A DNA stretch of 38,364 bases from a virus. Position numbers and translations under genes: made by a program. The stretch spans positions 1-38,364 of the IMG/VR virus record IMGVR_UViG_3300025122_000057; one strand, 5' to 3'. The notes below the pieces were generated by a model. That model saw nothing but the letters and a program-made list of their open reading frames with translations. It did not search any database and was not told where the DNA came from. Shown here piece after piece: positions 13,851 to 38,227 of this stretch; within the stretch, counting starts at the first letter, position 1; each line of letters begins with the position of its first letter.

Positions 13851-14287
13851 AGTGCCGTAGCGTTTCCAATCGAGCCGATCAATCTCCAGTTCGTCCCATC
13901 AGACTGCATCGTGCGGACGGCGTTTTGCTGAGTGAGCGAGATCGAACTTGAGCCATCGATCGTCTCTGAGCCGACCGGATCGATGACCACGAGGTTCTCG
14001 CTCGCGTCCGTTTTCTTGACGCTCACCACTTGGCCCTGGCGGCCGGTAGCCGTCAGCAGGAACACGCTCAGATCGGCGGCGGTGGCACCGGCCAGGATCA
14101 GGCTGTCCAGGTCGATCATGGTGTAGGTCGTGCTGCACGTCGTTGTCCCAACCGGATGCTTGCGGGTGTTCTCCTGGAGGACCCTGATTGCCTGCGAGAC
14201 GAGCACCAACCATTCGCGTGGATTGGGCCACGCGAGCGGCACCGATGGCTGGCCGCGGAAGTCTTTGCGAGGGCTAGAGAGTGCCAT
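13847..14287 (-). CDS. Beta-rich virion protein (146 aa)
   Basis: A 146-aa protein. The first 50 residues are polar; from about residue 55 it shows alternating beta strands (YTMIDLDSLILAGA, GQVVSVKKTDASENLVVIDP, ISLTQQNAVRTMQSDGTNWRLIG). The final segment resembles short tail-fibre or decoration domains that read out as xxTMxSDGTxWxxIG. It is probably a minor tail or fibre-attachment component. It starts at an ATG one base into the preceding gene's TGA (TGATG), between the gp10-like and GNAT-like genes. Confidence 0.7.
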   Translation of the reverse strand: MALSSPRKDFRGQPSVPLAWPNPREWLVLVSQAIRVLQENTRKHPVGTTTCSTTYTMIDLDSLILAGATAADLSVFLLTATGRQGQVVSVKKTDASENLVVIDPVGSETIDGSSSISLTQQNAVRTMQSDGTNWRLIGSIGNATAL

Positions 14288-15795
14288 CAGCGTTTCCCCA
14301 ACGGTCCCTCAAAATCGAGTTTCAGTCCCTGGACGTGCGACCACGATGTGCTCGAACTCAGCGACAAGCGAAAGCGATGGTACATCCCATCGCCGCGCAC
14401 CGGGCAAGTGCCACTAGCGTTCATGGCGGCGGCGCTACGGTAGGTGACGGTATCCTTGAGGCGTTGCCGAGCCGCCAGAGAAACATTGGCATCACCCGCA
14501 TCGACTAGGGGGGACACGCCGTTGACCTGGGATCGGTGACCGGGAGAGAGCTGCACGTCGCCGGTCACGATCGTCGCTGCGAGGGTGGCGCCGGTGAAGT
14601 AGCCGAGCCTGTGCGCTTGGTTGATTGCGCCGAAGCGGTACTGGCCGCCCTTCCAGCGATCACTGTCGAAACTCTCGGGGAACAGACTGGCGTTGTCGAT
14701 GTCCGTGCCAACCGCGGCATCCAGGCCGTCCAAGGTCTCGCCCTGCGTGGCGGTGGTCAGCAGCACCTCAGTGTCGATGACCGCCTCGGCCCACTTGTTC
14801 TCGTCGTATTTGCACATGAGCACCCGGTTGGGCAGCGTCGTCTTGTCGGTGCCGGGGAAGGCCCACGCCACGATTTTGTTCGGAGGATCGATGGCGGCCG
14901 TCACATAGCGGCGGTCGGTGATGGCGAACTGGTCCCAGAAGTAGCGGTCGATGCGGTCGCTTCCAATCGGCTGGACGGCGCCGTTGACGATTGACATGAA
15001 CCCATCTTCCGAGATGTAAAAGGCCGCTCCTTTGTGGCCGATCACCGAGCCGGCGATCGGAGTGCCGGGCGCATACTCGATCGGGAACAACTCGAATACC
15101 GTTCCACCGCCGACGTAGCGCATAGTGCGTACCATCGAATCCTGGAAGATGAGCCCATATTCGGTGCCGCCGATTATCCGCTGGACCCCGCCGCCGGTGA
15201 CGAGGTCTTCGTAGTCCGATTGGGTTGTGGCACTCGGGGCAAAGTCCGTCTCATCGCCGATCGCCGACCAACGGATGCGGCTTGGGTTTATGCCGTCGGC
15301 GTCGTTGATCCAGCCAAGGACCACGAACCGGTGGACGATGCCGACGTGCTTCGCCTTCGGGGCATTGCTTACAGGCGAGGAAATCATGTTGGCGAAGTTT
15401 TCGGTGGTCCCTTTGCCGATCGTGATGGACTGGACGGCGTCTTGGAAGTTCGTCGCGATGACCTTGTCGTTCTGGTTCCAGAGCGCGAACTCCCAGTTGT
15501 CCTCGTCGATGCTTGTGTATGCGGAGAGGCTCTCGTCGGTAAATGTCGCGCCGGGCGGGAGTTCGTAAAGCTTGGTCGCATCGCCCGTGTAGATGTAGAC
15601 GGTCGAGTTGTTGTCGCGCACCGAGATCGCGCCACGGGCTCTTGCCGTCATCGCATCTGAAATCACCGTCAGGTCTCGGAACGGTCCATACGACTTCGCT
15701 CGGGGGATCACGTTACGCGCCGTGATGATTTCCAGGCCACCGAACGGCGGCTGGTCCGTTGCGAGCTGACCGAAGGGTAGGGTGAGTTCGCCCAT
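14287..15795 (-). CDS. P22 gp10-like packaged-DNA stabilisation/tail protein
   Basis: The 502-aa, beta-rich protein begins MGELTLPFGQLATDQPPFGG and reads as a set of strand-rich units with repeated Trp/Tyr and Gly-Asp turns (IYTGDATKLYELP, YRFGAINQAHRLGYF). This resembles the P22 gp10 group of tail-hub proteins that bind below the portal-gp4 ring and close the DNA channel. Its place directly after the gp4-like adaptor gene matches that role. The start forms TGATG with the preceding stop. Assignment is by position and general fold pattern, not a catalytic motif. Confidence 0.75.
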   Translation of the reverse strand: MGELTLPFGQLATDQPPFGGLEIITARNVIPRAKSYGPFRDLTVISDAMTARARGAISVRDNNSTVYIYTGDATKLYELPPGATFTDESLSAYTSIDEDNWEFALWNQNDKVIATNFQDAVQSITIGKGTTENFANMISSPVSNAPKAKHVGIVHRFVVLGWINDADGINPSRIRWSAIGDETDFAPSATTQSDYEDLVTGGGVQRIIGGTEYGLIFQDSMVRTMRYVGGGTVFELFPIEYAPGTPIAGSVIGHKGAAFYISEDGFMSIVNGAVQPIGSDRIDRYFWDQFAITDRRYVTAAIDPPNKIVAWAFPGTDKTTLPNRVLMCKYDENKWAEAVIDTEVLLTTATQGETLDGLDAAVGTDIDNASLFPESFDSDRWKGGQYRFGAINQAHRLGYFTGATLAATIVTGDVQLSPGHRSQVNGVSPLVDAGDANVSLAARQRLKDTVTYRSAAAMNASGTCPVRGDGMYHRFRLSLSSSTSWSHVQGLKLDFEGPLGKR

Positions 15796-17089: not shown

Positions 17090-17438
17090 CCGAATCTCCT
17101 GTGCAGCGTTTCATGTGCCCAGCGATTCCGCGCCCGACGTGCTCGCCACAGTTCGGGCATACGCCTCTTAGCTGTACCCATGCGGGCCCGGGTTCTTGCC
17201 GCTGGTCTTCCCGCCTCGGCTCTTCTGCCTGGCGTCTGAGCGCAGGCCCGTCCGCATGGTCCCGGTGCCCATATGCGTCCCCTCGGCCGTTGAGTGGCCC
17301 CCCGCGCTCGGGGTCACGTCCTTGCCCGGGGTGTTCCGACCCTGCCAGCCGGGTCCGCTCTTGTGCGTCTTTGAGGTGCCCATCTTTGGCTCTCCTTTCG
17401 TCCTCTGACCTGAGTCTCACAACCCCACGTCGCCGCAT
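17073..17438 (-). CDS. Overlapping frame ending in a Cys/His zinc finger
   Basis: This frame ends VCPNCGEHVGRGIAGHMKRC, a C-x2-C-x11-H-x3-C zinc-binding pattern of about 19 residues, followed by a short acidic tail. An ATG at 17438 with AGGAG seven bases upstream opens the frame, but its middle lies across the 71-aa gene in another frame and has poor codon quality. No other start codon precedes the finger. Either the whole 121-aa frame is translated, or the finger is reached by a -1 frameshift from the 71-aa gene. The finger itself looks real. Confidence 0.45.
   Translation of the reverse strand: MRRRGVVRLRSEDERRAKDGHLKDAQERTRLAGSEHPGQGRDPERGGPLNGRGDAYGHRDHADGPALRRQAEEPRREDQRQEPGPAWVQLRGVCPNCGEHVGRGIAGHMKRCTGDSDDMEA
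17168..17383 (-). CDS. Gly/Lys/Thr-rich small protein (71 aa)
   Basis: The 71-codon frame begins MGTSKTHKSGPGWQ and is rich in Gly, Thr and Lys, ending GKNPGPHGYS. AAGGAG sits eight bases upstream of the ATG, and third positions are strongly GC. The composition suggests a flexible, possibly nucleic-acid-binding or virion-associated protein. No family is recognised. A CCCGGGC heptamer (17186..17192, read on the minus strand) lies shortly before the stop in slip-compatible phase, which would join the C-terminal zinc finger. Confidence 0.65.
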   Translation of the reverse strand: MGTSKTHKSGPGWQGRNTPGKDVTPSAGGHSTAEGTHMGTGTMRTGLRSDARQKSRGGKTSGKNPGPHGYS

Positions 17439-17462: not shown

Positions 17463-18224
17463 TCATGCGCTCGCCGCTTGCAGCGGGTAATCAACCACTT
17501 GGCTGTTCGCGGCCTCCTCGTAGTACCCCCACCACTCGTTCGCATAGGCCGATCCCTCGTGGCCTTCCATGTCTGGCGTGCCCCGGGTGTAGTGGACGAG
17601 CTTCGGCTCGAGATCGGGCGACGAGTGCCCTTCGAGCCAGTTCCACGCCTCCGGTAGCTCGCCGATCGCGTCGTCCTCGAACCCTTGCAGACCGTGCAGC
17701 GAGCCCCCGTCCCAGTTGTTGACGGCAAACTTTGTCCAGGTGCGGCACCGCTCGGGACACATGAGCATGACGCTCGACCAGTTCTTCCGCTCGTAGGTCG
17801 TCTGGAGGACGCCGTCGAGCTTCTCGCGTTCCCGCGGTCGGTGGTCATGCTTGACGACGAACAGGCTCTTCTGGGCGTCGACGTGCGCCACGAGCTCGGC
17901 GATGTCGGCCCGCCACATCATGTCGGCGTCCGTGAACAGCACCCAGCGGCTGCCGTACTCCTCGAGCCCCGGCACGCAGAAACGGGTGAATGAGAACTGG
18001 GTCGAGAACGGCTTGCCGTCGGTGTCGTCCCACATCTGGCCGCGGTGGTCGACGTGGTAGGACCTCCAATACTCGCCCCGCTTCCGCAAGTCCCGATCGA
18101 TCAGCGGCACGACATGGACTGGGATGGTCGCGTGCCGCATCAGCGACGCCACGGCGACCTGGTAGGCCGCGTAGTCGCGCGGGTCCCACCCGATATAGAC
18201 CTTGATGTTGTCGATTTTTCGCAT
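17463..18224 (-). CDS. GT8-like nucleotide-sugar glycosyltransferase
   Basis: The 253-aa protein has the GT-A layout. An N-terminal strand-turn (VYIGWDPRD, residues 9-17) is followed by AVASLMRHA, a VPLIDR strand, and a DAD metal-binding motif in VLFTDADMMWRADI (about 99-101). Later come LQGFEDDAIGELPEAWN and a C-terminal KLVHYT segment that closes the donor site. Such enzymes move a sugar from a nucleotide donor. ATG at 18224 is chosen over 18230 because GGAAGGA abuts the latter. It is the last gene of the glycosyl/methyl/radical-SAM block. Confidence 0.85.
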   Translation of the reverse strand: MRKIDNIKVYIGWDPRDYAAYQVAVASLMRHATIPVHVVPLIDRDLRKRGEYWRSYHVDHRGQMWDDTDGKPFSTQFSFTRFCVPGLEEYGSRWVLFTDADMMWRADIAELVAHVDAQKSLFVVKHDHRPREREKLDGVLQTTYERKNWSSVMLMCPERCRTWTKFAVNNWDGGSLHGLQGFEDDAIGELPEAWNWLEGHSSPDLEPKLVHYTRGTPDMEGHEGSAYANEWWGYYEEAANSQVVDYPLQAASA

Positions 18225-18239
18225 TTTCATTCCTTCCGT

Positions 18240-19184
18240 TTACGCGTAGGCGACGCAGTGCTCGCAGGCCGTGCCGCGAACGTCGCCCTTGAGGTGCTCC
18301 GTGCGGAGTCGTTGGAACTTGTCTGAGTGCCAGGCGCCCATGAAGTTCTCATCGAGGAGGTTCCCCATGTCGAAGCGCCCGTCGTGGTCGAAGCAGCACG
18401 CGGCCAGGCGGCCGTCGTGGGTCACCCGGGCCTCGGTGAAGAGCGACCAGCACGGCACCGGCTCTTGCATGTTCCCGGCGCGACCCGGGTTGCCGGCGCG
18501 CACCGCCCACCCCTTGTCCGACGAATCGGCGCCGGTCAGATCGGCCTGGCTGTAGAGCGGCAGCGCGTAGACCTCGTCGAGGTAGGGGGCGACCTTATCG
18601 ACGAGCGCCCGCATACGGCGCCCCTGGTCCGCGTCATAGTCGATGTAGGAGGCGTAGAGACCGCACGTGTAGTCGCCTCCGTCGCGAATCTCCTTGGCCT
18701 CGCGGATGCTCATTAGGAGACGCTGGAAGAGCGCCGGCTTCACCCTGGTGATCTCGGCGAACTGCTCGGCGTCGGCGTAGTTGAGGCTGAACTTGAGACT
18801 GTCCAGGCCAGCGGCCAGGTAGCTCTCGATCTTCTCGTAGTTGAGCGCCGTGCCGTTCGTCGTCAGGAACACATAGGGGAAACCCTGACGCTTGGCCTCC
18901 GCGATCGCCTCGTCCAGCCACGGGAGGATGCTGCTTTCGCCGAGGAAGAACATGCCCACCTCCTCGACGCCCGCGGCGCGGAGCTCGGGTAGGAGTTTCT
19001 GCGAATAGAACTCCCAGTCCATGTCCGACTTGTCGCGAAGGTTCGATGCCGTGGCGCAGAACGAGCACTGAAGGTTGCAACGGGCGGTGAGTTCGATCTT
19101 GACCGACTTCGGGCAGGGCGGCGCCGGTATCCGGTGCTGCTCTTGCATATGGGTGATGGCGTCGACGCGTTCGGTGATACTCAT
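18240..19184 (-). CDS. Radical SAM protein with SPASM-type C-terminus
   Basis: A 314-aa protein with the radical SAM cluster CNLQCSFC (C36, C40, C43; CX3CX2C). Supporting segments include VGMFFLGESSILPWLDEAI, VFLTTNGTALNYEKI and LDSLKFSLNY. The C-terminal third carries CWSLF, then GRLAACCFDHDGRF and TACEHC, Cys motifs like SPASM/twitch domains that hold extra Fe-S clusters. Members act on peptides, sugars or sugar alcohols. The start is ATGA-coupled to the methyltransferase gene. Substrate unknown; neighbouring glycosyltransferases suggest a sugar or glycosylated protein. Confidence 0.88.
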   Translation of the reverse strand: MSITERVDAITHMQEQHRIPAPPCPKSVKIELTARCNLQCSFCATASNLRDKSDMDWEFYSQKLLPELRAAGVEEVGMFFLGESSILPWLDEAIAEAKRQGFPYVFLTTNGTALNYEKIESYLAAGLDSLKFSLNYADAEQFAEITRVKPALFQRLLMSIREAKEIRDGGDYTCGLYASYIDYDADQGRRMRALVDKVAPYLDEVYALPLYSQADLTGADSSDKGWAVRAGNPGRAGNMQEPVPCWSLFTEARVTHDGRLAACCFDHDGRFDMGNLLDENFMGAWHSDKFQRLRTEHLKGDVRGTACEHCVAYA

Positions 19185-19714
19185 GCGTCTTCCCCGTTCG
19201 GGCCCTTCGCCAGGGCAAACACCGCGAACTCGCCGTCGACTGCGTTGAACAGACGCAAGTCCCATCGTTCCATGATCTTCGGGAGCCACCACTGGGAGGG
19301 CTGTACGATCAGATGCGCGTTGCGCCCATCGGCCAGGAACTTGACGGCCAAGCGGGTTGCGACCGTCATGAAGATGCCAGCCTTGGTGCAGCGTTGGAGA
19401 TCGTCGAGGACGGTGTCGAGACAGTCGGGTTCGATATGCTCAAGCACGTCCAAGCACACGACCAGGTTGGCGGGTTCCGGGGGGTCATCCTTGCCGTCAA
19501 CCGCCGGGTCGTATTCTTTGATGAGCATGTGGCTGAGCGCGCGTCCGAGGTAGCCCTTGCCGCACCCGTAGTCGAGGATGTCTTCGGTCCCCAGAACCCT
19601 GGCGAGTTCGCGCACTTGGGGCGTATGCTTGCCGCTGGAACCGCCCGCGCCGTAGTCGGGACGGTCGGCGTGGAGCTGCTTGTTAAGCTCCCGGTAATCT
19701 TCCGTGATGAGCAT
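19181..19714 (-). CDS. Class I SAM-dependent methyltransferase
   Basis: The 177-aa protein has motif I ILDYGCGKGYLG (about residues 46-57), the acidic motif-II/III area (IKEYDPAVDG) and LVVCLDVLEHIEPD, a common motif-IV pattern. It lacks the NPPY/DPPY of DNA N6 methylases, so a small molecule, sugar or protein is more likely as substrate. It is coupled to the radical SAM gene by an ATGA overlap and lies two bases downstream of the polyvalent-protein gene. Sugar O-methylation would fit the context. Confidence 0.85.
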   Translation of the reverse strand: MLITEDYRELNKQLHADRPDYGAGGSSGKHTPQVRELARVLGTEDILDYGCGKGYLGRALSHMLIKEYDPAVDGKDDPPEPANLVVCLDVLEHIEPDCLDTVLDDLQRCTKAGIFMTVATRLAVKFLADGRNAHLIVQPSQWWLPKIMERWDLRLFNAVDGEFAVFALAKGPNGEDA

Positions 19715-19716
19715 TT

Positions 19717-21864
19717 TTACATTTCTTCCATGTTGAGCAGGCCGCTCGGCTCATTGCCGGGCTGCGATAGCTGCGACCCTAACAGACCGGCGCCCCCGAG
19801 GGCCACACCGCCTTTGAGTATGTCTTCGAACATCTCCGGGGTCACCTTGAGCGCCCAGAGGCTCGGCATCGCGGGCTTGGTCGCACTTCCCTTCGTCACC
19901 TCCGCGCCGCCCTTGCGGTATTTCTTCGCGGCCTTGCGGGCGGCGTTGGCGATCCGGTTGTCGTACAGGTCCCGGAAGAACTTGCCTCCGACCTCTATGT
20001 TGAGGCCGTCGAGGGTGTTGCGGCGCGCACGATCCGCGAGGCCGCCGCCCGGACGCGCTGTAATATCCTGCATCTTTTGTGCCGTCTCATCCCCCAGCAG
20101 CTTGCTCAGGCGGTCGGTCGTCAACCCGGTTTCCTTGAGGACGTGTTTGTTGCCCGGAGGGGCGGACCACCCGTTGACGTCGTAGGTCCCATCATCATTC
20201 AACCGCCATCGGACAGCATCAATCTTCTTAGACTTCCCCCACTTCTTGATTGGGATCTCGGCCGGCACCCAGGTGACGTAATCGATGCCCGGCTTGCCCG
20301 CCGCGCGCAGCTCCTTATCCCGCTTCGCCGCGCCGTACAGGAACCGGCGAAACAAGAGGTCAGGCCAGTTCTTCTTGAAGGGGGCGTCGGGAACAGTGCC
20401 GCTAGGGCGAGTAGGATCAGCGAGGTCTTCCAGTTGTAACATTCTATCGTACTGCACTTCAGTCAGCGGGGTTCCTCTAGTTTCTCTTGTCGCCATCGCG
20501 TCTTGTGTGCGAAGTGCTGTTAGTTCTTGAACCTCTTCCGCACTCATTCCCCCATCCGACCCATACCCCTGCTTCGCGCCCTTCTCGTGGAGCTCGCTTT
20601 GGAACTCGAGGGCGTTGTAGGCGCGGCCCTTGACGCCGTTGACGAAAACCTCCCGCTCATCATGCCGGAACCAGCCAAGGACGTTCTTGTGCTCTGAATA
20701 GTGGCTGCCAACGAAATCCCCCCCAGTGCCCCGCGTTTCCTCAGCCGCCCGCAGGGTCGACTGGAGGAGGTCTTGCTCGTCGTAAAGAGCCTCGGCCTGC
20801 TGCTGCACCGCACGCGGTCGTTCATGGATGCTCGGATATGTCGCCGTTATTGCGTGGAGCTCCTCCTCGACCTCGTTCAAACGAACCTGGGATCGGCTGG
20901 GAGGACGGCCCGGTGTCCCCGGCGCCCGCTCCAGCCGCACCGCGACCTCCCCGTAGTTCTCGCCGCCGGGCAGCTCCGGGTACTGGTAGGAGGAATATTC
21001 GGTTGAGTTGCGACCGCCGAAGTGGGTTGTGTCGTAGATTTCGTCTAGGCTGCCGACAATCCGCTTGGCCTCTGTGCTCAGGCTCGGGATCCTAGCCACC
21101 TCCTCGGCGCTGAACATCGCCCCCGTGCGCGGATCGCCCGGGCCGAAGTCAATCCGGTATCTGATTGTGGAGGCGTCGTCGACAACCGGGTGTACGCCGG
21201 CCCCTTCCAGTATGGACGCCTGTTGCGAATAGGTCTCTTTCCATTCCGCGAGCCCAGCCTCGAGGTTTGGCTCCGAGGTCTTGACCTCGTCCACCAACCG
21301 CATCGGGTTGGCTTCCGCCTGGGCCTGCAGCCCGCTTTTGGTAACCGGCCCCTCGCCCTCAAGCATCTTCCCGACGCCCGTGTATTCCAACTCGTCCGCA
21401 CTCACCCCGCCGGGAGTTTTCGCGATAACGCCCCGCGCTTGACCCGCCGTCATCTTCTCCTGCGGCAACGCCTCCAGGGCGCCGGGCACCCGCGGGCGGT
21501 AGGCGCCGAGCAGCGCCGGCACGCCCTTGCCGACGGTTTTCATGATGCCGGCCCCGAACATATTCTCGCCGTGCCACTGGGCCTCCAGCGCCATGTCCTC
21601 GGGCGTGCCCATGCCGATCTTCCCCTTCGGCGCGGCGGCCCTGGCGGCGGCGTTCCGGTCCATCGCCTCCTTGATGTGTGGCGGCGGTGCCAGGAACTTT
21701 TGAACCTCCGCCAGCGGGTTTACCTTGCCAGGGGGCGCGTAGCCGCCGCCCAGGGCCTTCACAAGCGCGGCGTGCTGGTTTGGCACCGGAGGCCGCCCGA
21801 GCGCGCCCAGGATCGCCTGCGGACCCGGCTGGTACTGGTCGAGGTATTCATTCAGCAGCGGCAT
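19717..21864 (-). CDS. Large polyvalent-type phage protein (715 aa)
   Basis: A 715-aa multidomain protein. Residues about 156-168 (SADELEYTGVGKML) open a region seen in phage large polyvalent proteins. Residues 394-430 (NVLGWFRHDE, then LEFQSELHEKG) and 492-507 (PDAPFKKNWPDLLFRR) match the domain usually read as HxxEPNVLxHxR...EIQSDWHQ...PDAPFKKxW in such proteins. The biochemical activity of that domain is undefined. The N-terminal and C-terminal parts are Gly/Ala-rich. These proteins are often packaged and injected. Here it lies inside the glycosyl/radical-SAM block. The ATG shares one base with the upstream stop. Confidence 0.75.
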   Translation of the reverse strand: MPLLNEYLDQYQPGPQAILGALGRPPVPNQHAALVKALGGGYAPPGKVNPLAEVQKFLAPPPHIKEAMDRNAAARAAAPKGKIGMGTPEDMALEAQWHGENMFGAGIMKTVGKGVPALLGAYRPRVPGALEALPQEKMTAGQARGVIAKTPGGVSADELEYTGVGKMLEGEGPVTKSGLQAQAEANPMRLVDEVKTSEPNLEAGLAEWKETYSQQASILEGAGVHPVVDDASTIRYRIDFGPGDPRTGAMFSAEEVARIPSLSTEAKRIVGSLDEIYDTTHFGGRNSTEYSSYQYPELPGGENYGEVAVRLERAPGTPGRPPSRSQVRLNEVEEELHAITATYPSIHERPRAVQQQAEALYDEQDLLQSTLRAAEETRGTGGDFVGSHYSEHKNVLGWFRHDEREVFVNGVKGRAYNALEFQSELHEKGAKQGYGSDGGMSAEEVQELTALRTQDAMATRETRGTPLTEVQYDRMLQLEDLADPTRPSGTVPDAPFKKNWPDLLFRRFLYGAAKRDKELRAAGKPGIDYVTWVPAEIPIKKWGKSKKIDAVRWRLNDDGTYDVNGWSAPPGNKHVLKETGLTTDRLSKLLGDETAQKMQDITARPGGGLADRARRNTLDGLNIEVGGKFFRDLYDNRIANAARKAAKKYRKGGAEVTKGSATKPAMPSLWALKVTPEMFEDILKGGVALGGAGLLGSQLSQPGNEPSGLLNMEEM

Positions 21865-23351
21865 CAGGCGGCTTTCCCTTCCCGCTCCCGCAAGAACACG
21901 GCCAGGCGGGCGTTGACCTCCTCGACGACGGGCGTCCAGTCCCTGGTGTCCTTGGCTTGGCGTATCTGCGTCACGGACCCATACCAGTGCATGACCTCGC
22001 CCGAATCGGCGCTGTAGCGCCATGACGGCTGCGAGGGCGTCAGGCACCAGCACGGGATGCCCAGTGCGCCGGCGACGTGGATCGTCGTCTGGCAAACGGA
22101 GATCACCAGGTCGAGGGATGCGATCAGCGACACCAGGGCATCGATGTCGTTCGGCTTGCCGGTCTCCGGGTGGCGTGCCTCGACCGCCTCCGGCCAGTGG
22201 TGGAGCGTGGTGCCCGTGGCCTTGAGCACCTCGTCGACGTTCATCCTGGCGGTGGCGTCGTACTGGAGCGATACCCAGGTGGCGTCGTACTCCTTGAACA
22301 ACGGCTCGAACAGGAGCGGGTGGAACGATCGCGCCTCGTTGCGCGTCGATGGGACGCCGCCCTGCCAGGCGAGGCCGATGCGGGGCCTGTCACCCAGCTT
22401 ATTGAGCTTCGCGCGCCAACCGGCCACCGCGTGGGGATCGGCCTTGAGGTAGGGGGTGCGCGGGCAGTCAGCCGGGTTGCGCCGGAACAGCTTGGGCAGC
22501 GATCCGAGCGGCAGCTTGAAGTCAGGCTTCTCATGATTCTCGATCCAGCCGCGACCGTCGACGTGATCGGTGCCATGCACCAGGTGGGCGTCGGGGAACG
22601 ATCGCACAAACAGGCGCTCCAGGCGCGGCGACGGCTCAAGGATGATGTCGGCTCCGGTGGCGAGCGCGTCGGGGATGCAGCTCGAGAACATGATCTCGTC
22701 GCCCATGCCCTGCTCGCCGTGAATGACGACCGTTCCATGTGAAACGCCGTCCCACATCGGCGTCATGCCGTCGGGTCCGTGGTAGTTGCGCTCCCAGATA
22801 TTCTCGTTGGCGCCGCCAATCAGCCTGGTCTCGTGGAGCTCCCAGGCCTCGTCCCAGCGCGACATCTCGAGCAGCGCCATCGCCTTGTGCCACTGCGCCT
22901 TGACGTGGTCGGAGTCTTTGGCGAGGGCCTTGTCGGCCCACTCGAGCGCGATCTCCGGCGTCCCCCGGTTGAGGTGCAGGCCGCTGACGTTGGTCGGGAC
23001 GTCGGGGTGGTCGATGTACTTCCCCGCCTTCTTGCAGCAGTAGGCGGCCTTGTCCCATTCGTTGACGCCGCGGAACGCCATGCCGAGGTTGTTCCAGGCC
23101 TCGCCGAACGTCGGCTCAGCTTGCGTGATCTGGGTGAAAAGCTGGATCGCGAGACCGTAGTTGCCGCGCGTCAGATGAAGCGATGCCAGGACGTAGAGCA
23201 CGATCGGGTGCCCCAGGTTCTGGCACAGTATTTCGTTGAGGAGACGCTCCGACTTGTCGAGGTCTACCGGATACGGATTTCCTTTGTCGTCCCGGCCCTC
23301 AAGCGAGAACTTCGCCTCGTTGAAGACGTCTTCCGCAAGTACAAGTTCCAA
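21864..23351 (-). CDS. TPR-domain glycosyltransferase (GT9/heptosyltransferase-like)
   Basis: The 495-aa protein has TPR-type helical pairs at about residues 40-175 (repeated ALA-W/Y-x-x-A patterns such as WNNLGMAFRGVNEWDKAAYCC). A GT-B domain follows with VVIHGEQGMGDEIMFSSCI near residue 212 and PRIGLAWQGG near 330. SLIASLDLVISVCQTTIHVAGALG near 420 is typical of heptosyltransferase/GT9-like donor binding. Such enzymes add sugars to lipid or protein acceptors; the TPR part may recruit a protein. Start TTG at 23351 has GGAGG six bases upstream. Confidence 0.85.
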   Translation of the reverse strand: MELVLAEDVFNEAKFSLEGRDDKGNPYPVDLDKSERLLNEILCQNLGHPIVLYVLASLHLTRGNYGLAIQLFTQITQAEPTFGEAWNNLGMAFRGVNEWDKAAYCCKKAGKYIDHPDVPTNVSGLHLNRGTPEIALEWADKALAKDSDHVKAQWHKAMALLEMSRWDEAWELHETRLIGGANENIWERNYHGPDGMTPMWDGVSHGTVVIHGEQGMGDEIMFSSCIPDALATGADIILEPSPRLERLFVRSFPDAHLVHGTDHVDGRGWIENHEKPDFKLPLGSLPKLFRRNPADCPRTPYLKADPHAVAGWRAKLNKLGDRPRIGLAWQGGVPSTRNEARSFHPLLFEPLFKEYDATWVSLQYDATARMNVDEVLKATGTTLHHWPEAVEARHPETGKPNDIDALVSLIASLDLVISVCQTTIHVAGALGIPCWCLTPSQPSWRYSADSGEVMHWYGSVTQIRQAKDTRDWTPVVEEVNARLAVFLREREGKAA

Positions 23352-23366
23352 CCGATGCCTCCGTTG

Positions 23367-23403
23367 AAAAACACGGGGCCGCCCTGTGGTTATGGACGGC
23401 CCC
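23367..23403 (-). terminator. Intrinsic terminator after the capsid/decoration genes
   Basis: On the minus strand a 10-bp stem, GGGGCCGTCC with GGGCGGCCCC (one G-U pair) around a nine-base loop, is followed by GTG and five T. It lies downstream of the decoration gene and only about five bases before the ribosome-binding site of the TPR glycosyltransferase gene, so it likely reduces downstream transcription. Confidence 0.82.
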
Positions 23404-23431
23404 GCGAGTTGCCGTACACGGAAGGAACCGT

Positions 23432-23923
23432 CTAACGGATAGTTGAGCGCCCAGCAAGCCCATCCATGGTGTAGAACAGCATCCAGGTGAGCACAAGGCT
23501 CGCGGAGATAGCCGTCCTCAAAACCATTTGAATCCGGGCTGTCGCCGGCTGCACATCATCCGAAAGCGAGATGCGAACCGGCATGAGGTCGCCGCCCATC
23601 GGCGCTCGGTAATACGAACGCCCGAAGGTGCCCGCGATCACCTGGATCGACCCCGAGTGTGAGAGGGTCAACGACAACGAGGTCATCGCTTGGATGCCAC
23701 TGGGCGAAGCCGACGTCCCGATTTCGATGCTTTGCTCTGCTGCGCCGCTCTGGTAACGATACCACCAGTCGACGAGCGTCGCCCCGCTGGGGACAAAGTT
23801 GAGCAAAACCACGCTCGACGCCGTGCCTGTAGCGGACACTGACACATGAGCGCCGACTGGTATGATGCCCGTATGCGTGGCTTTGACGTTTGCGTTGAGC
23901 AAGGAGGCTGTAAATGTTGACAT
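23432..23923 (-). CDS. Capsid decoration-like protein (163 aa)
   Basis: The 163-aa beta-rich protein (ASLLNANVKATHTG, SSVVLLNFVPSGATLVDWWY, GRSYYRAPMGGDLMPVRIS) directly follows the major capsid gene. A strong AGGAGGT lies before its ATG. This context is common for capsid decoration or head-fibre proteins that stabilise the shell. The C-terminus has a hydrophobic stretch (ISASLVLTWMLFYTM), unusual for such a protein and possibly membrane-active. No named family is certain. Confidence 0.65.
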   Translation of the reverse strand: MSTFTASLLNANVKATHTGIIPVGAHVSVSATGTASSVVLLNFVPSGATLVDWWYRYQSGAAEQSIEIGTSASPSGIQAMTSLSLTLSHSGSIQVIAGTFGRSYYRAPMGGDLMPVRISLSDDVQPATARIQMVLRTAISASLVLTWMLFYTMDGLAGRSTIR

Positions 23924-30799: not shown

Positions 30800-31263
30800 A
30801 GGGGCATCTCCTTGACCTCGGTCTGGGGCGTGAGCTCGATCATGGGCGGCTCCGACTTGCTCTCGATCTCGCGGGGCCGCGTCGGATCGATCAGCTCGAC
30901 CACCAGGCGCATCTCCCCGCCGACCGCTCCGGCCTTGCCGTCGGCGAAGTCCCCAGCCCGCTCGGCCTCCGGCCGGTCCTTCCATCCGCCGCGGCACCGC
31001 AGCCAGAAGATCGCCGCTTGGATCGAACCCTTGTCGTCGCTGGTAGCCTTCTGGAACAACGACTGGGCCACCTTCATGTTGGCCTTGTGCAGCCCGAACG
31101 CGATCTCCTCCTTGAAGTATTTACGCACGGTCAGATGCGAGATCGTCTTCCCGGTGACCTGGTGGCGCACCAGCTTGCCGATGACCTCCTGGGGAATGCC
31201 GTAGGCGGTCATCGTCTCGACCTGGGCCCGCTGTTCAGCCGTCGGCTCGAACTTTACTGCCAC
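30796..31263 (-). CDS. Terminase small subunit-like protein
   Basis: The 155-aa protein has an N-terminal helix-turn-helix region (QRAQVETMTAYGIPQEVIGKLV, then TGKTISHLTVRKYFKEE) and a helical oligomerisation part (LHKANMKVAQSLFQKATSDDKGSIQAAIFWLRCRGGW, about 57-95). Many phage TerS proteins have this layout, including the FWLRCRGGW segment. It recognises packaging DNA and recruits TerL. It is read from GTG at 31263 and overlaps the methylase 3' end by 29 bases. The acidic-basic tail is poorly conserved. Confidence 0.87.
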   Translation of the reverse strand: MAVKFEPTAEQRAQVETMTAYGIPQEVIGKLVRHQVTGKTISHLTVRKYFKEEIAFGLHKANMKVAQSLFQKATSDDKGSIQAAIFWLRCRGGWKDRPEAERAGDFADGKAGAVGGEMRLVVELIDPTRPREIESKSEPPMIELTPQTEVKEMPL

Positions 31264-32533
31264 CGAATGGTTCCCCTGTGGCCTCGAGGGTAGCGGTCTG
31301 GCCTGTGAACGCCTGCCATCGCTTCACGGCTAGGTCAACGTAAACTGGATTGATCTCGATGGCTAGGCAACGCCGCCCCAGCATCTCGGCGGCAATTATG
31401 GTAGTTCCAGAACCCACGAATGGGTCATACACCGCCTCGCCGCGCTCGGAGTTGTTGGCGATGGGCCGGCGCATGGCCTCTGCTGGCTTCTGCGTCGAGT
31501 GCCCGGTCTCCGAGGCACGATGGGTGATTTCCCAGACGGTAGACTGGTCACGGGCGCCTTGCCAGTGTCCGTTCTTTCCGTTCCGCACCGCATAAGCGCA
31601 CGGCTCATGGCTCCAGTGGTAGTTGCCGCGACCTATGATGGTGCGGTTTTTGTTCCAGACGATTACGGCGCGGAGTGCAAACCCAGCCGACTTGATGCTC
31701 GCAAACACCTCATCGGCGTGAAGGCTCGCATGCCAGATGTAGGCGACGTCGCCGGCGAACAACGACCACGTGGCCGTCCAGTCGGCTTGGTCGTCGTTGT
31801 CAACGCGGCCGACGGCCTTGGCCCCAACCGGACTGCCGCCGAATCCCTTGGTCCTACTGACCCGCGTCCGCCAGTCCGCCTCATAGTTCACGCCATACGG
31901 CGGGTCCGTGACCATCAGGTGGGGGGCATGGTCGCCCACACAGGCCGCCACGTCGGCTTTATCGGTCGAGTCGCCGCATAGGAGCCTGTGGTCGCCCAGC
32001 AGCCACACGTCGCCGACTTTCGAGAGGGGGTCCGTGGGCAGCGCCGGCGCGGCATCGGGGTCGGTCAGGCCTTCGTACCCATCGATGTTCAGCCGGGCGA
32101 GCTCGCTGGTGTCGAAGCCAAGCGGCCGGAGGTCGAAGTCCGCGCCCCGGAGCGCGCCGATCTCGAGCGTGAGGAGGCCCAGGTCCCACGCCGCCTCCTC
32201 GCCCGAACGGTTGTCGGCGATCCGGTACGCGGCGGCTTCGGCGAGCGTCAACTCGGCGACGTGCACCGGCACCTCCTTGAGGCCGAGCGACCTGGCGGCC
32301 AGCAGCCGGCCGTGGCCCACGATAACCACCCCCGCGCCGTCGACCACGATGGGCTGACGCCAGCCGTACTCGTTGATCGAGGCGGCGATCTTGGCGACCG
32401 CCTTGTCGGAAATCTTGCGGGGGTTGCGAGGGTAGGGTTTGACGTCGCCGATCGGGCGCACTTCCACGGCGATGGTGGGGCTGGGGAGCCCAGCGGGGGC
32501 GCTCCCCCAGTCTTCCTCGAGATCCGGTGTCAC
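31235..32533 (-). CDS. ParB-domain/beta-class DNA N6/N4 methyltransferase
   Basis: The 432-aa protein starts with a ParB/sulfiredoxin-like domain (residues about 22-105, GHGRLLAA motif at 73-80). Motif IV DPPYGVNY is at 210-217 and motif I DPFVGSGTT at 370-378, the order of beta-class DNA adenine/cytosine-N4 methylases. DPPY favours N6-adenine. ParB-methylase fusions are common in phages; the ParB part may bind DNA or nucleotide. The GTG at 32533 follows GGAG; a longer frame to 32755 would overlap the preceding gene. Likely self-DNA protection or regulation. Confidence 0.92.
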   Translation of the reverse strand: MTPDLEEDWGSAPAGLPSPTIAVEVRPIGDVKPYPRNPRKISDKAVAKIAASINEYGWRQPIVVDGAGVVIVGHGRLLAARSLGLKEVPVHVAELTLAEAAAYRIADNRSGEEAAWDLGLLTLEIGALRGADFDLRPLGFDTSELARLNIDGYEGLTDPDAAPALPTDPLSKVGDVWLLGDHRLLCGDSTDKADVAACVGDHAPHLMVTDPPYGVNYEADWRTRVSRTKGFGGSPVGAKAVGRVDNDDQADWTATWSLFAGDVAYIWHASLHADEVFASIKSAGFALRAVIVWNKNRTIIGRGNYHWSHEPCAYAVRNGKNGHWQGARDQSTVWEITHRASETGHSTQKPAEAMRRPIANNSERGEAVYDPFVGSGTTIIAAEMLGRRCLAIEINPVYVDLAVKRWQAFTGQTATLEATGEPFGGSKVRADG

Positions 32534-32613
32534 GGGTTCTCCGCGAAAGGATGGGGCCGAGCCGCCTGGGAAAAACGACCCGGCCCCCGGCTCTATGACT
32601 CCGCAGACCCTCC

Positions 32614-33216
32614 TTACACCTCCAAGTCCATCTGCGTCAACAAGCTGTCGGGCGTGCGAAGGTAGTGCGACTCCCGGTATTCCCGCACGGCATTGCGGCC
32701 TTCGTCCGTTGGATGGATGATCTTCAGAGTGTGACCAACCCGCTCGCGTATCCAAGCCACGGGAACCTTCCGACAGGCCGTGCGGTTTAGTTGCTTTGAA
32801 ATGGTCTCTTCAAATTCATCCACCGCCGGCCAGAAACACTCTCGCAGAGCCTGGAAGTCGATGATGTGGCAGGCGACAGTCAGGTTCTTGCAGCACATCG
32901 CGTAGACCAGCCAGTCAGCTTGGCCGTATTTCATCCAGCCGTCGCTCTCCCGACCGGGCACGGTGCAGCTCGTCGTCTCAAGGGTGACGGCCGCGTATTC
33001 GCCACGCACGATCTTCTCCTCGACACACGTCGCCTGCCCGCCTTCGCGCTGCAAGATGGTGTCCACCGCATAACGCTTCTGGAGAGTGCCAGCCAAGCGG
33101 CCCTTGTCGATGTAGACATAGCGGCCCTCGAGGGCGAAGCTGCCGTATAGACCCGGGCCGAGGACGAGGTCCCTGACCTTCCGCTGCGCCGCGTTGTCGA
33201 TATGAAACCGGCTCAT
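32614..33216 (-). CDS. Candidate PD-(D/E)XK nuclease-like protein (200 aa)
   Basis: The 200-aa protein contains D52, followed after a 13-residue loop by VEEK (E66-x-K68), then AAVTLETTS and GWMKYGQADWLVYA (93-106). This spacing fits the PD-(D/E)XK nuclease core, and the GW..xxADWLVYAM segment resembles the sheet-helix after it in phage or restriction-like nucleases. A C-terminal region has KIIHPTDEGRNAVREY. It lies between two ParB-methylase genes, so a restriction-type or genome-exchange role is plausible. The catalytic assignment is my inference. Confidence 0.5.
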   Translation of the reverse strand: MSRFHIDNAAQRKVRDLVLGPGLYGSFALEGRYVYIDKGRLAGTLQKRYAVDTILQREGGQATCVEEKIVRGEYAAVTLETTSCTVPGRESDGWMKYGQADWLVYAMCCKNLTVACHIIDFQALRECFWPAVDEFEETISKQLNRTACRKVPVAWIRERVGHTLKIIHPTDEGRNAVREYRESHYLRTPDSLLTQMDLEV

Positions 33217-33380
33217 CCATCCGCCCTTCCTTTCTCCCCGGCCACCAGAATCAGTTGGAGCGTTTCCTTTGCCACTGCCCAGCCATGATCATGGATATCG
33301 CTCAGAAGCATGGTGAGATCGAAGTCGTTGAGGCTTCGCACCGCCGCCAATTCACCACTTGATATCTGCTGGTTGATCAT
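33213..33380 (-). CDS. Small protein in the methylase operon (55 aa)
   Basis: The 55-aa product begins MINQQISSGELAAVRSLND and is all helical, with a middle segment LTMLLSDIHDHGWAVAKETL. Its ATG shares a base with the methylase stop (TGATG), and its stop overlaps the next ATG (ATGA). No family is recognised. The close coupling suggests a partner of the flanking methylase or the nuclease-like protein; a protein-protein adaptor would fit its size, but there is no direct evidence. Confidence 0.65.
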   Translation of the reverse strand: MINQQISSGELAAVRSLNDFDLTMLLSDIHDHGWAVAKETLQLILVAGEKGRADG

Positions 33381-34447
33381 CAGACCACCTTGAAAAGGTT
33401 GCTGAACCCATCCCGCTCCGTGCGCTGGAACGCCTCGCCGAAGGGCGGATAGGACGCCCGCTGCACGATCTCGTAGAAAATATCCGGCTTGTCGCTGTGC
33501 TTGCTGACCGGCGCCTCGAAATGCGTGGCGATGTTGTCGGCCCGGGTTCGGAGCTCGCCGCGCAAACCAAATAGGACATGCTCCGTCGAATTGCGGAAGT
33601 AGGATCCCAGCCCCCACCGCGGTTTGACCCAGGTGAGCACGGTCTTGTGGGCGAACCCCCAGTGCTTCATCAGATCTGCGGCCCGGGTGATGAAGTTGTT
33701 GGTGGTCCAGAGATAAAGATGGCAATTGTCCTCGGCCCAGTCGGGAACGGGCAGGGCCAGCAGCTCTTCGTGCGTCATGGTGGCATAACCCGGCGCCGCC
33801 CGGCCGGCAAGGGACAGCCACTCGTAGTCCCACGGTGGATCGATCACGAGGGTCTTGTGCCTGCCTTCGACGGGCTCGAGAGACATCACCGCCGCTTCAT
33901 CGCGGGCCTGCTTGAGCTTCCGATGGGCGCCCGTCACATTGCCGGCCCGGTCCATCTCCTCGACCAGGTGGCCGAACCGCTCGGGCTCCTCCTCGGCGGC
34001 GTCAACCACGTCCTTGATCTTCTCGACCGTGCGACCAGATACCCCGGCGAAGGCGCCGATCTTGTCAACTGACCGCCCTGCCGCCGTGTGCGAAACTTTC
34101 GCGTTTGGAAGGTTGGCTGTCCGACGCTCCTCCGCCGCCGCCTTCTCTTGCGGCTCCAATGCTCGCCGGATCGCATCTATCTCGCTCGGCGTGAAGTCCT
34201 TGCGTATGGCGTTCTCTGCGAACTCTCCGCGCACCACCTCGGCAAGATCAACGACGGTGGCGGGAATATCATCGAGCCCGAGCTGCTTGAATGCCTCGAG
34301 TCGGCGCTGACCAGCGATCAGCATGTTGTCAGGCGTGACGACGATGGGGTGGAGAAGGCCCACCTCCTGGATGCTGGCGACGAGCGACGTGAGATCGCCC
34401 AGCTCCTTGCGATGGCGTCGGCCAACCTTGATCGTGGAGATTTTCAT
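33380..34447 (-). CDS. ParB-domain/MT-A70 DNA adenine methyltransferase
   Basis: A 355-aa fusion. Residues 1-100 form a ParB-like domain with AGQRRLEA (45-52) and FAENAIRKDFTPSE, and a middle region to about 185 has GVSGRTVEKIKDV, a helix-turn-helix pattern. The C-terminal MT-A70 domain carries DPPWDYEW with DPPW at 203-206, then LYLWTTNNF and EHVLFGLRGE. MT-A70 proteins methylate adenine N6. It may act as an orphan DNA methylase. A 24-codon DUF7220-like relic overlaps its start by four bases. Confidence 0.92.
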   Translation of the reverse strand: MKISTIKVGRRHRKELGDLTSLVASIQEVGLLHPIVVTPDNMLIAGQRRLEAFKQLGLDDIPATVVDLAEVVRGEFAENAIRKDFTPSEIDAIRRALEPQEKAAAEERRTANLPNAKVSHTAAGRSVDKIGAFAGVSGRTVEKIKDVVDAAEEEPERFGHLVEEMDRAGNVTGAHRKLKQARDEAAVMSLEPVEGRHKTLVIDPPWDYEWLSLAGRAAPGYATMTHEELLALPVPDWAEDNCHLYLWTTNNFITRAADLMKHWGFAHKTVLTWVKPRWGLGSYFRNSTEHVLFGLRGELRTRADNIATHFEAPVSKHSDKPDIFYEIVQRASYPPFGEAFQRTERDGFSNLFKVV

Positions 34448-37057: not shown

Positions 37058-37198
37058 AACCGGCCGGGATGTTCCAGCAGGCGAGCGGCGGCGTCAGCGG
37101 CCACTAAGGGCAAGACAGGCGCCCTGCCGAGCGGTCCCGGCCATCACATGGCGCCGCCAAGGGCACCAACCGCCGCACTACTGTGGAAGGGACGCGGC

Positions 37199-38227
37199 GT
37201 GAACATTCGCCTCACTCAGATTGACGGCAAGCTGCCCAACTTGGCGCTGATGAAGCTGGCGGCGTGGCACCGCTACCAGGGCGATCGCGTTCATTTCACA
37301 AAGAACATTGAGCGCGACATGTTGGAGGCGGAATACGACCGCGTCTACGGCTCGGCGATCTTTAGTTTCAGCGCCGAGCGCGTCGGTCGGTTTCGCCGCC
37401 AGTTTCCGCAGGCCATTGTGGGCGGGACGTGGAACCCAGTGGATCGGACGACGGTCGAGGACTTCATCGGTGAACACCCTGACCGATATGATTATTCGAT
37501 CTATCCGAGGTTTGATGGGTCTATCGGATTCACCCAGCGCGGCTGCCGGTTCAAGTGTGGATTCTGTGTGGTTCCCAAGAAGGAAGGGAAGCCCGCGTCG
37601 GTCAATACCATCGCCGACATCTGGCGTGGCGATCCTCGGCCGCGACATCTTCACCTCTTAGACAATGATTTTTTCGGGCAGCCTCGCGATCAATGGCAGA
37701 GGCGGATCGAGGAAATACGCGACGGCGCCTTCAAGGTGTGTCTCAACCAGGGGATCAACATCCGCATGATTGACGACGCCAGCGCCTCGGCGCTCTCATC
37801 GATCAAGATCCGGGACGATCAGTTCAAGGTGCGGCGCCTGTACACCGCCTGGGACAACCTCGGCGACGAGCACCGCTTCATGCGCGGCGTCGAAACCCTT
37901 GAGCGGCACGGCATCCCACCGCAGTGTCTGATGGTCTACATGCTGGTCGGCTACGACCGCCGGGAGACTTGGGCGCGCGTCATGTACCGATTTGAGAAGA
38001 TGGCGAGCTTGGGCATCCGCCCATACCCGATGGTGTTTGAGAATCGGCACCGAACCTTGCCTCTCGGCAGCACGAATCAACGCCTCGCCAATAGAACTCT
38101 TGGGGAGTTCCAGCGATGGGCAATCCGCAAGGCGTACACCTTCGTCTCGTTCCAAGATTATGACGTGAATGCCAAGGGGCGTGCGGAGGTGGGACAACTG
38201 GCGCTGGAGTACGATACATCTCAATGA
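37199..38227 (+). CDS. B12-domain-type radical SAM protein
   Basis: The 342-aa protein has an N-terminal Rossmann-like domain resembling a B12-binding domain (NLALMKLAAWHRYQGDRVHFT, then YDRVYGSAIFSFS, residues about 14-58). The radical SAM cluster CRFKCGFC follows (C116, C120, C123), then LHLLDNDFFG and LNQGINIRMID. No cobalamin ligand His is obvious. GTG at 37199 has AAGGGA upstream. Members of this phage group are uncharacterised; RNA or small-molecule modification is possible. It ends the right-arm operon before the junction ORF. Confidence 0.87.
   Translation: MNIRLTQIDGKLPNLALMKLAAWHRYQGDRVHFTKNIERDMLEAEYDRVYGSAIFSFSAERVGRFRRQFPQAIVGGTWNPVDRTTVEDFIGEHPDRYDYSIYPRFDGSIGFTQRGCRFKCGFCVVPKKEGKPASVNTIADIWRGDPRPRHLHLLDNDFFGQPRDQWQRRIEEIRDGAFKVCLNQGINIRMIDDASASALSSIKIRDDQFKVRRLYTAWDNLGDEHRFMRGVETLERHGIPPQCLMVYMLVGYDRRETWARVMYRFEKMASLGIRPYPMVFENRHRTLPLGSTNQRLANRTLGEFQRWAIRKAYTFVSFQDYDVNAKGRAEVGQLALEYDTSQ

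Follow-up and report, generated by a model that had tools for sequence, protein, structure and literature searches.

Glycosylation of the virion has been demonstrated in few phages. In mycobacteriophages, phage-encoded glycosyltransferases decorate capsid and tail-tube proteins, on the account of Freeman et al. (2023, Cell Host Microbe) as given in PMC12619734. The locus considered here, a predicted system of this kind, shares with that case the encoding of phage glycosyltransferases together with virion genes; the phages are unrelated, and the present module differs in that its TPR enzyme is OGT-like, in that it includes a methyltransferase and in many cases a radical SAM enzyme, and in its linkage to a separate capsid cement protein. 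Nearer in design are Pam1 (ON014753; capsid 7EEL) and Pam5, which like the source phage encode TerL, portal, scaffold, major capsid protein (MCP), cement, adaptor, needle head and an acetyltransferase. Their cement protein is homologous to that of the source phage, and in Pam1 its gene lies 18 bases from that of the MCP; unlike the source phage, they have no enzyme cassette between cement and adaptor, and their MCP is only distantly related. In Ralstonia phage GP4 the cement protein is trimeric and sits on the outside of the capsid (PMC9698820). At the site of the block, Podoviridae sp. ctDrO704 (MW202512, from a Manatee Spring metagenome) carries a TPR protein, an HNH gene, a methyltransferase annotated as FkbM and a galT-like GT8 enzyme, but neither the radical SAM gene nor the 715-aa gene of the source phage; the record is silent on function. 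Literature searches found no description of this module, nor of radical SAM or TPR-OGT cassettes in phages. The parts are of known kinds; the combination, its fixed site and its joint turnover with the cement gene are new.

The window, the whole of IMG/VR record IMGVR_UViG_3300025122_000057 (38,364 bases), belongs to a podovirus of the cyanophage Pam1 type, with the head-to-tail gene order of Pam1 (TerL, portal, scaffold, MCP, cement, adaptor, nozzle). All structural genes are on the minus strand, where they read TerL, portal (PF16510), scaffold, MCP (Phage_capsid_3, PF13252; 23938..25035; Pfam 1e-61, PHROG major head protein), a 163-aa protein, the enzyme block, genes of 71 and 78 aa, tail adaptor (SU10_adaptor, PF24175; 15795..16550; E 1.1e-11) and the tail nozzle or needle-head protein (14287..15795), recognised by its position, as in Pam1, and by 27.9% identity to the ‘phage stabilization protein’ of locus L002. 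The 163-aa protein is the cement; the block is thus an insertion into a Pam1-like architecture, between cement and adaptor genes. Its right-hand flank is the small 71-aa gene (17168..17383, minus strand), which precedes the adaptor in near relatives. By MCP (43-45% identity), the cultured relatives are Microcystis phage Mae-JY35, Rhizobium phage RHph_Y1_10 and Paracoccus phage KLEP18-1; the block is absent from these three, which have the order MCP, one small gene, adaptor.

The block consists of five open, co-directional minus-strand reading frames, running from 23351 to 17463, with their catalytic signatures intact. An initial annotation, made from the letters of the window, had described such a block between head and tail genes, and it is real. 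The genes were said to overlap mostly by 1-4 bases, which holds for two of the four junctions: TPR-GT9 overlaps the 715-aa gene by 1 base and the methyltransferase overlaps the radical SAM gene by 4, whereas gaps of 2 and 9 bases separate the 715-aa gene from the methyltransferase and the radical SAM gene from the GT8-like one. Profile searches bore out the calls of TPR, methyltransferase and radical SAM/SPASM domains; for GT9 and GT8 they gave matches that were weak or confined to relatives, and for a polyvalent protein none. The cement gene and terminator upstream of the block had been overlooked.

The first gene (21864..23351, minus strand, TTG start) encodes a 495-aa protein in which profiles, an AF2 model and Foldseek recognise an N-terminal TPR superhelix and a GT9-like glycosyltransferase domain. 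The TPR part passes profile cut-offs. PF01075 matches weakly in six of 27 family members at E<0.1 (best 2e-4), the copy of the source phage not among them, and 1psw matches the C-terminal profile at E 0.07. There is a GEQGxGDE signature, of which G215, G217 and D218 are invariant across 51 relatives. The model (pLDDT 95) has the TPR followed by a two-lobed glycosyltransferase domain, and SPINDLY and OGT are its top full-length Foldseek matches, at low TM-scores (0.3-0.4); the architecture is of the OGT/SPINDLY type, a TPR superhelix fused to a GT-B domain. Eukaryotic OGT and SPINDLY and the bacterial OGT homologues (GT41) share this order, but TPR-GT9 departs from them in those scores, in a catalytic domain that is GT9-like and in having only about five TPR units. 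It is not a member of GT41, because that domain is GT9-like by sequence; the C-terminal profile matched no GT41 chain, and sequence matches to OGT fall on the TPR part. OGT and SPINDLY hold their protein substrates with the TPR superhelix, and the model suggests that TPR-GT9 may work like them without being one of them.

The methyltransferase (19181..19714, minus strand; 177 aa) is a class I SAM enzyme: PF13489 matches at 1.3e-6 (28.7 bits, cut-off 27), and motif I, DYGCGK, is conserved, with D48, G50 and G52 invariant. The radical SAM/SPASM enzyme (18240..19184, minus strand) scores 54.7 bits in its core (PF04055, 1.8e-14) and 44.2 bits in its SPASM domain (PF13186, 2.3e-11), against curated cut-offs of 29.5 and 21.5; the CX3CX2C motif and the SPASM cysteines C245, C263, C264, C307 and C310 are all invariant in four homologues. 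The gene most likely starts at 19184, giving 314 aa, rather than at the start of the longer ORF. BtrN, a radical SAM dehydrogenase acting on an aminocyclitol, is the top solved-structure match of the family profile (E 3e-15), the resemblance being confined to about 100 residues of the radical SAM core. The GT8-like glycosyltransferase (17463..18230, minus strand; 255 aa) matches PHROG 28018 at 6e-59, and D101 and D103 of its DAD motif are invariant; PF01501 (GT8) recognises the copy in L006 (30.7 bits, cut-off 24.3) and, weakly, that in L008, with no match in the source phage. Chromosomal homologues of the SPASM enzyme, 58-66% identical, occur in Rhodospirillales, Magnetococcales, Burkholderiales and other Proteobacteria MAGs, with TPR-GT9 genes nearby in L167-L169, L171, L177 and L197; a Pfam search of the genes around these homologues gave nothing informative. 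Such loci are a possible source of the phage module, and offer a hint that SPASM and TPR-GT9 enzymes work together outside phages.

The remaining gene (19717..21864, minus strand) encodes a 715-aa protein and is an insertion private to the source phage. It had been named a polyvalent protein, a reading that did not survive: no Pfam family matches at E<1, hence no polyvalent-protein domain was found, and there is no PHROG match. A profile search found no homologue among 165 other loci, and in the phage collection the protein has a single relative, a portion of a large protein encoded by Dolichospermum phage Dfl-JY45. As the gene is absent from the cassettes of all relatives, it was ruled out as a member of the module.

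Upstream of the enzymes lies the gene for the capsid cement (decoration) protein (23432..23923, minus strand; 163 aa), the proposed glycan acceptor, identified by profile, Foldseek and gene position. A profile of 45 relatives matches the solved cement proteins of Pam1 (7eel_H, E 9.5e-9) and GP4 (8h89_J, 8.9e-7); the AF2 model, all beta with a mean pLDDT of 77, finds the same two at the top in Foldseek (4.3e-5 and 1.8e-3), the KHP40 cement trimer coming next among phage proteins. The gene begins 14 bases after the MCP and precedes the adaptor module, which is the position of the annotated cement genes of Pam1 and Pam5; in KLEP18-1 the gene so placed is annotated as a structural protein. The Ser/Thr fraction of the cement is 0.221 in genomes with the cassette and 0.198 in those without (p 0.015, uncorrected for kinship). 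Between cement and enzymes stands an intrinsic terminator-like hairpin (23367..23406, minus strand; dG -28.3 kcal/mol, followed by TTTTT), which the standard consensus scan misses: its loop is of 9 bases, and the scan allows 8. Counted within 130 bases after the cement gene at -10 kcal/mol or better, terminators occur in 38 of 73 genomes with the cassette and 11 of 67 without, as compared with about 4% in dinucleotide shuffles. They recur at one position with unrelated sequences. Such a terminator would fit expression of the enzymes below the level of the capsid proteins.

To see how the block fares among relatives, IMG/VR was scanned with SPASM and MCP alignments (best 80 per query), alignments being needed since single-protein scans reach only the closest relatives. 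This yielded 243 loci with a Pam1-like MCP and a readable site, 146 after reduction to less than 90% MCP identity. TPR-GT9 is found downstream of the MCP in 73 of the 146 and is absent there in the other 73, an even ratio that reflects the sampling and says nothing of population frequency. Of the 55 cassettes spanned as far as the adaptor, every one begins with TPR-GT9: 32 read TPR-GT9, methyltransferase, GT8; eight have the order of the source phage, with SPASM before GT8; the rest are subsets or rearrangements. Additional genes in other cassettes encode FkbM and other methyltransferases, GT1-like and GT29-like enzymes and HNH endonucleases, and nearly everything in the cassettes is a glycan-tailoring enzyme. 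The state of the cassette must change 11 times on the MCP tree, with at least six of the changes forced by well-supported branches; gene order and content are kept across very divergent capsids. The recurrence of the same genes, in the same order and at the same site, in dozens of relatives places the arrangement far beyond chance. Four genes of the block (TPR-GT9, methyltransferase, radical SAM/SPASM and GT8-like) thus form a recurrent module, with the 715-aa gene outside it. The proposal that the genes constitute a modification pathway keeps, in this respect, four of its five members; synteny, which was the check suggested for it, is found at one site rather than a scatter of genes, and the position inside the structural operon, thought unusual, is the standard cassette site of this phage group.

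Variants of the site were also seen. Podoviruses with another capsid type (L013, L035, L042, L045, L049, L051, L057 and L058) carry TPR-GT9, SPASM and GT8, and a homologous adaptor comes next; in most of these, the type being recognised by eye, a conserved 110-aa gene replaces the cement before the cassette. HNH genes lie inside or beside cassettes in L002 (23077-23553), L006 (9546-9998) and L009 (4200-4709 and 5478-5963), and in L009 an HNH endonuclease occupies the place expected of SPASM. A 65-kb phage with a different backbone (L007:11897-14179) has SPASM, GT8 and then a 760-aa fusion of Methyltransf_24 and an MptE-like part that weakly resembles PseD, a flagellin-modification protein; the fusion would be another enzyme of protein-glycosylation type beside this pair. 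In L304 (9573-14366) an alternative cassette follows the cement: a glycosyltransferase-like protein, one that by eye is sulfotransferase-like (IFVHIPRTGGSSIE), a methyltransferase-like protein and SPASM, its TPR-GT9 being located upstream of the portal; sulfation of the glycan is possible there. In the cassette-less L229 (5950-6507) a short glycosyltransferase-like protein (LFLDSDMTFPND) stands alone between cement and pre-adaptor gene, perhaps as a minimal or decayed cassette.

What changes along with the cassette is the cement. Among genome pairs with MCPs 74-90% identical, which are not independent of one another, median cement similarity is 0.67 when both have the cassette, 0.40 when neither has it and 0.08 when one does; the corresponding values are 0.59, 0.63 and 0.55 for the adaptor and 0.37, 0.44 and 0.31 for the scaffold. 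When cassette labels are permuted over MCP clades in a regression on MCP similarity, the discordance effect is -0.219 for cement (p 0.001), and the four other genes show no such effect (adaptor +0.008, scaffold -0.016, portal +0.029, nozzle +0.010). Individual cases are plain. In the tightest contrast, L232, with the cassette, and L230, without it, have MCPs 85% and cements 23% identical, whereas L232 and L220, both with the cassette, are at 79% and 61%. L220 and L216 differ in the cassette and have cements 27% identical, while the small gene before the adaptor, comparable to the 71-aa gene of the source phage, is conserved at 61% (43/71); the exchanged segment therefore comprises cement and cassette and ends before the next gene. 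One close pair, L070 and L304, breaks the rule with cement at 51%, and is instructive because L304 has alternative enzymes at the site, SPASM included. Cement and cassette, then, are exchanged together; adaptor, scaffold, portal and nozzle are not. The main weakness of this result as a sign of function is that cement and cassette adjoin, so that joint exchange may be simple linkage.

Several other measures were set aside. A division into two cement classes at first separated cassette from empty genomes (47/47 versus 2/23); it was dropped, as 16 of the 146 genomes have class-A-like cement without a cassette, as do Pam1 and Pam5. An independent-pairs test of cement class against cassette over the 146 genomes was uninformative and was replaced by the matched-MCP similarities. 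Mirror-tree signal with TPR-GT9 is 0.37 for scaffold and 0.24 for cement over the same 33 genomes; with scaffold scoring at least as high, co-evolution of this kind was dropped as support for the cement. A matched-genome Wilcoxon test also flags the nozzle (p 0.0015, n=22), which the clade-permutation regression does not; kinship among the genomes makes such Wilcoxon p-values untrustworthy.

One way to understand these observations is that Pam1-like podoviruses glycosylate their virions by means of the four conserved genes, as a swappable module, with cement as the likeliest acceptor; we give this about an even chance. What counts most against it is that linkage could by itself explain the joint exchange and that phages lacking this cement carry the same cassette; class-A-like cement in genomes that have no cassette, a mirror-tree signal that is not particular to cement, and the low TM-scores to OGT and SPINDLY count against it too. 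We infer the pathway itself, from donor sugar and acceptor through the glycan and the order of steps to the function of the coat, from the genes and their neighbours. TPR-GT9 would use its TPR superhelix to dock a virion protein, on whose Ser/Thr it would place the first sugar; the acceptor would most likely be the cement, a trimeric Ig-like protein whose gene lies just upstream and which would coat the exterior of the head; the GT8-like enzyme would extend the glycan; and the methyltransferase, with the radical SAM/SPASM enzyme where present, would cap or remodel the sugar. The terminator after the cement gene would hold down expression of the enzymes relative to the capsid proteins, and the coat might help adsorption, add stability, or let the phage escape whatever recognises its capsid. 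O-glycosylation of head protein is suggested by a TPR-fused glycosyltransferase adjoining a surface protein that is abundant and rich in Ser/Thr. By analogy with the exchange of capsule or O-antigen loci among bacteria, a narrower form of the proposal has the OGT-like enzyme O-glycosylating the cement, the other three enzymes tailoring the product, and the whole being exchanged as one capsid-surface type; this we hold somewhat short of even odds.

A second perspective supposes that the module glycosylates another virion protein (the MCP, the adaptor or a tail protein) and that the cement is co-exchanged merely as a neighbour. The cement cannot be the acceptor in every phage, because the podoviruses with another capsid carry TPR-GT9, SPASM and GT8 before the adaptor with no class-A cement detected (e.g. 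L013, L042, L045, L049, L057); divergence of TPR-GT9 tracks the scaffold as well as the cement. If mere nearness were at work, however, the adaptor and pre-adaptor gene, equally close on the far side, should turn over too, and they are not exchanged; nor does class-B cement ever occur with a cassette (0/39). We consider this alternative unlikely.

The enzymes might instead act on the host envelope, altering LPS, capsule or S-layer late in infection, which would keep progeny from adsorbing to debris or prevent superinfection. A typical GT9 enzyme is an LPS heptosyltransferase, and GT8 enzymes act on LPS as well; the chromosomal SPASM homologues of Rhodospirillales, Magnetococcales and Burkholderiales, some beside TPR-GT9 genes, are compatible with such a role. 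On this account cement turnover with the cassette is not predicted, the genes lie within a late structural operon, and the structurally known TPR-fused glycosyltransferases act on proteins. A serotype-conversion cassette of Gtr type is ruled out, as none of the five proteins matches the GtrA flippase or GtrB bactoprenol glucosyltransferase family. Action on the envelope thus seems improbable. The initial annotation had left open decoration of the virion or a change of the host surface; no sign of superinfection or LPS function was found, and decoration is the better supported, given the late structural position, the exchange of cement with the cassette, and the OGT/SPY-like first enzyme.

That the cassette is cargo at a recombination-prone site, moved along with the cement through linkage and unrelated to the capsid, is very unlikely: adjacent genes do exchange jointly without a functional link, and the HNH genes of L002, L006 and L009 indicate a site active in gene transfer, but conserved order and content across divergent capsids, contents devoted almost wholly to glycan tailoring, the absence of any cassette beside class-B cement and a terminator recurring with unrelated sequences all speak against it.

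If virion glycosylation is the right account, it would be a trait widespread in a large group of podoviruses from the environment, swappable, and coupled to an outer-capsid protein that is itself exchangeable; the module would also provide bacterial protein O-glycosylation in simple form, with the natural acceptor encoded next to the enzyme. Radical SAM/SPASM enzymes would gain a role in virion assembly, for which we know of no earlier proposal. Matched pairs such as L232 and L230, alike in MCP and differing in cement and cassette, would directly test why phages glycosylate their heads.

Two further features of the window lie outside the block. A second, unrelated radical SAM-like protein of 359 aa, with CX3CX2C, is encoded near the right end of the record (37148-38227, plus strand), divergent from the structural operon; PF04055 matches it at E 0.0011, under the cut-off. 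Upstream of TerL, at 31235-34447, two proteins read by eye as fusions of ParB-like and DNA-methyltransferase parts are encoded.
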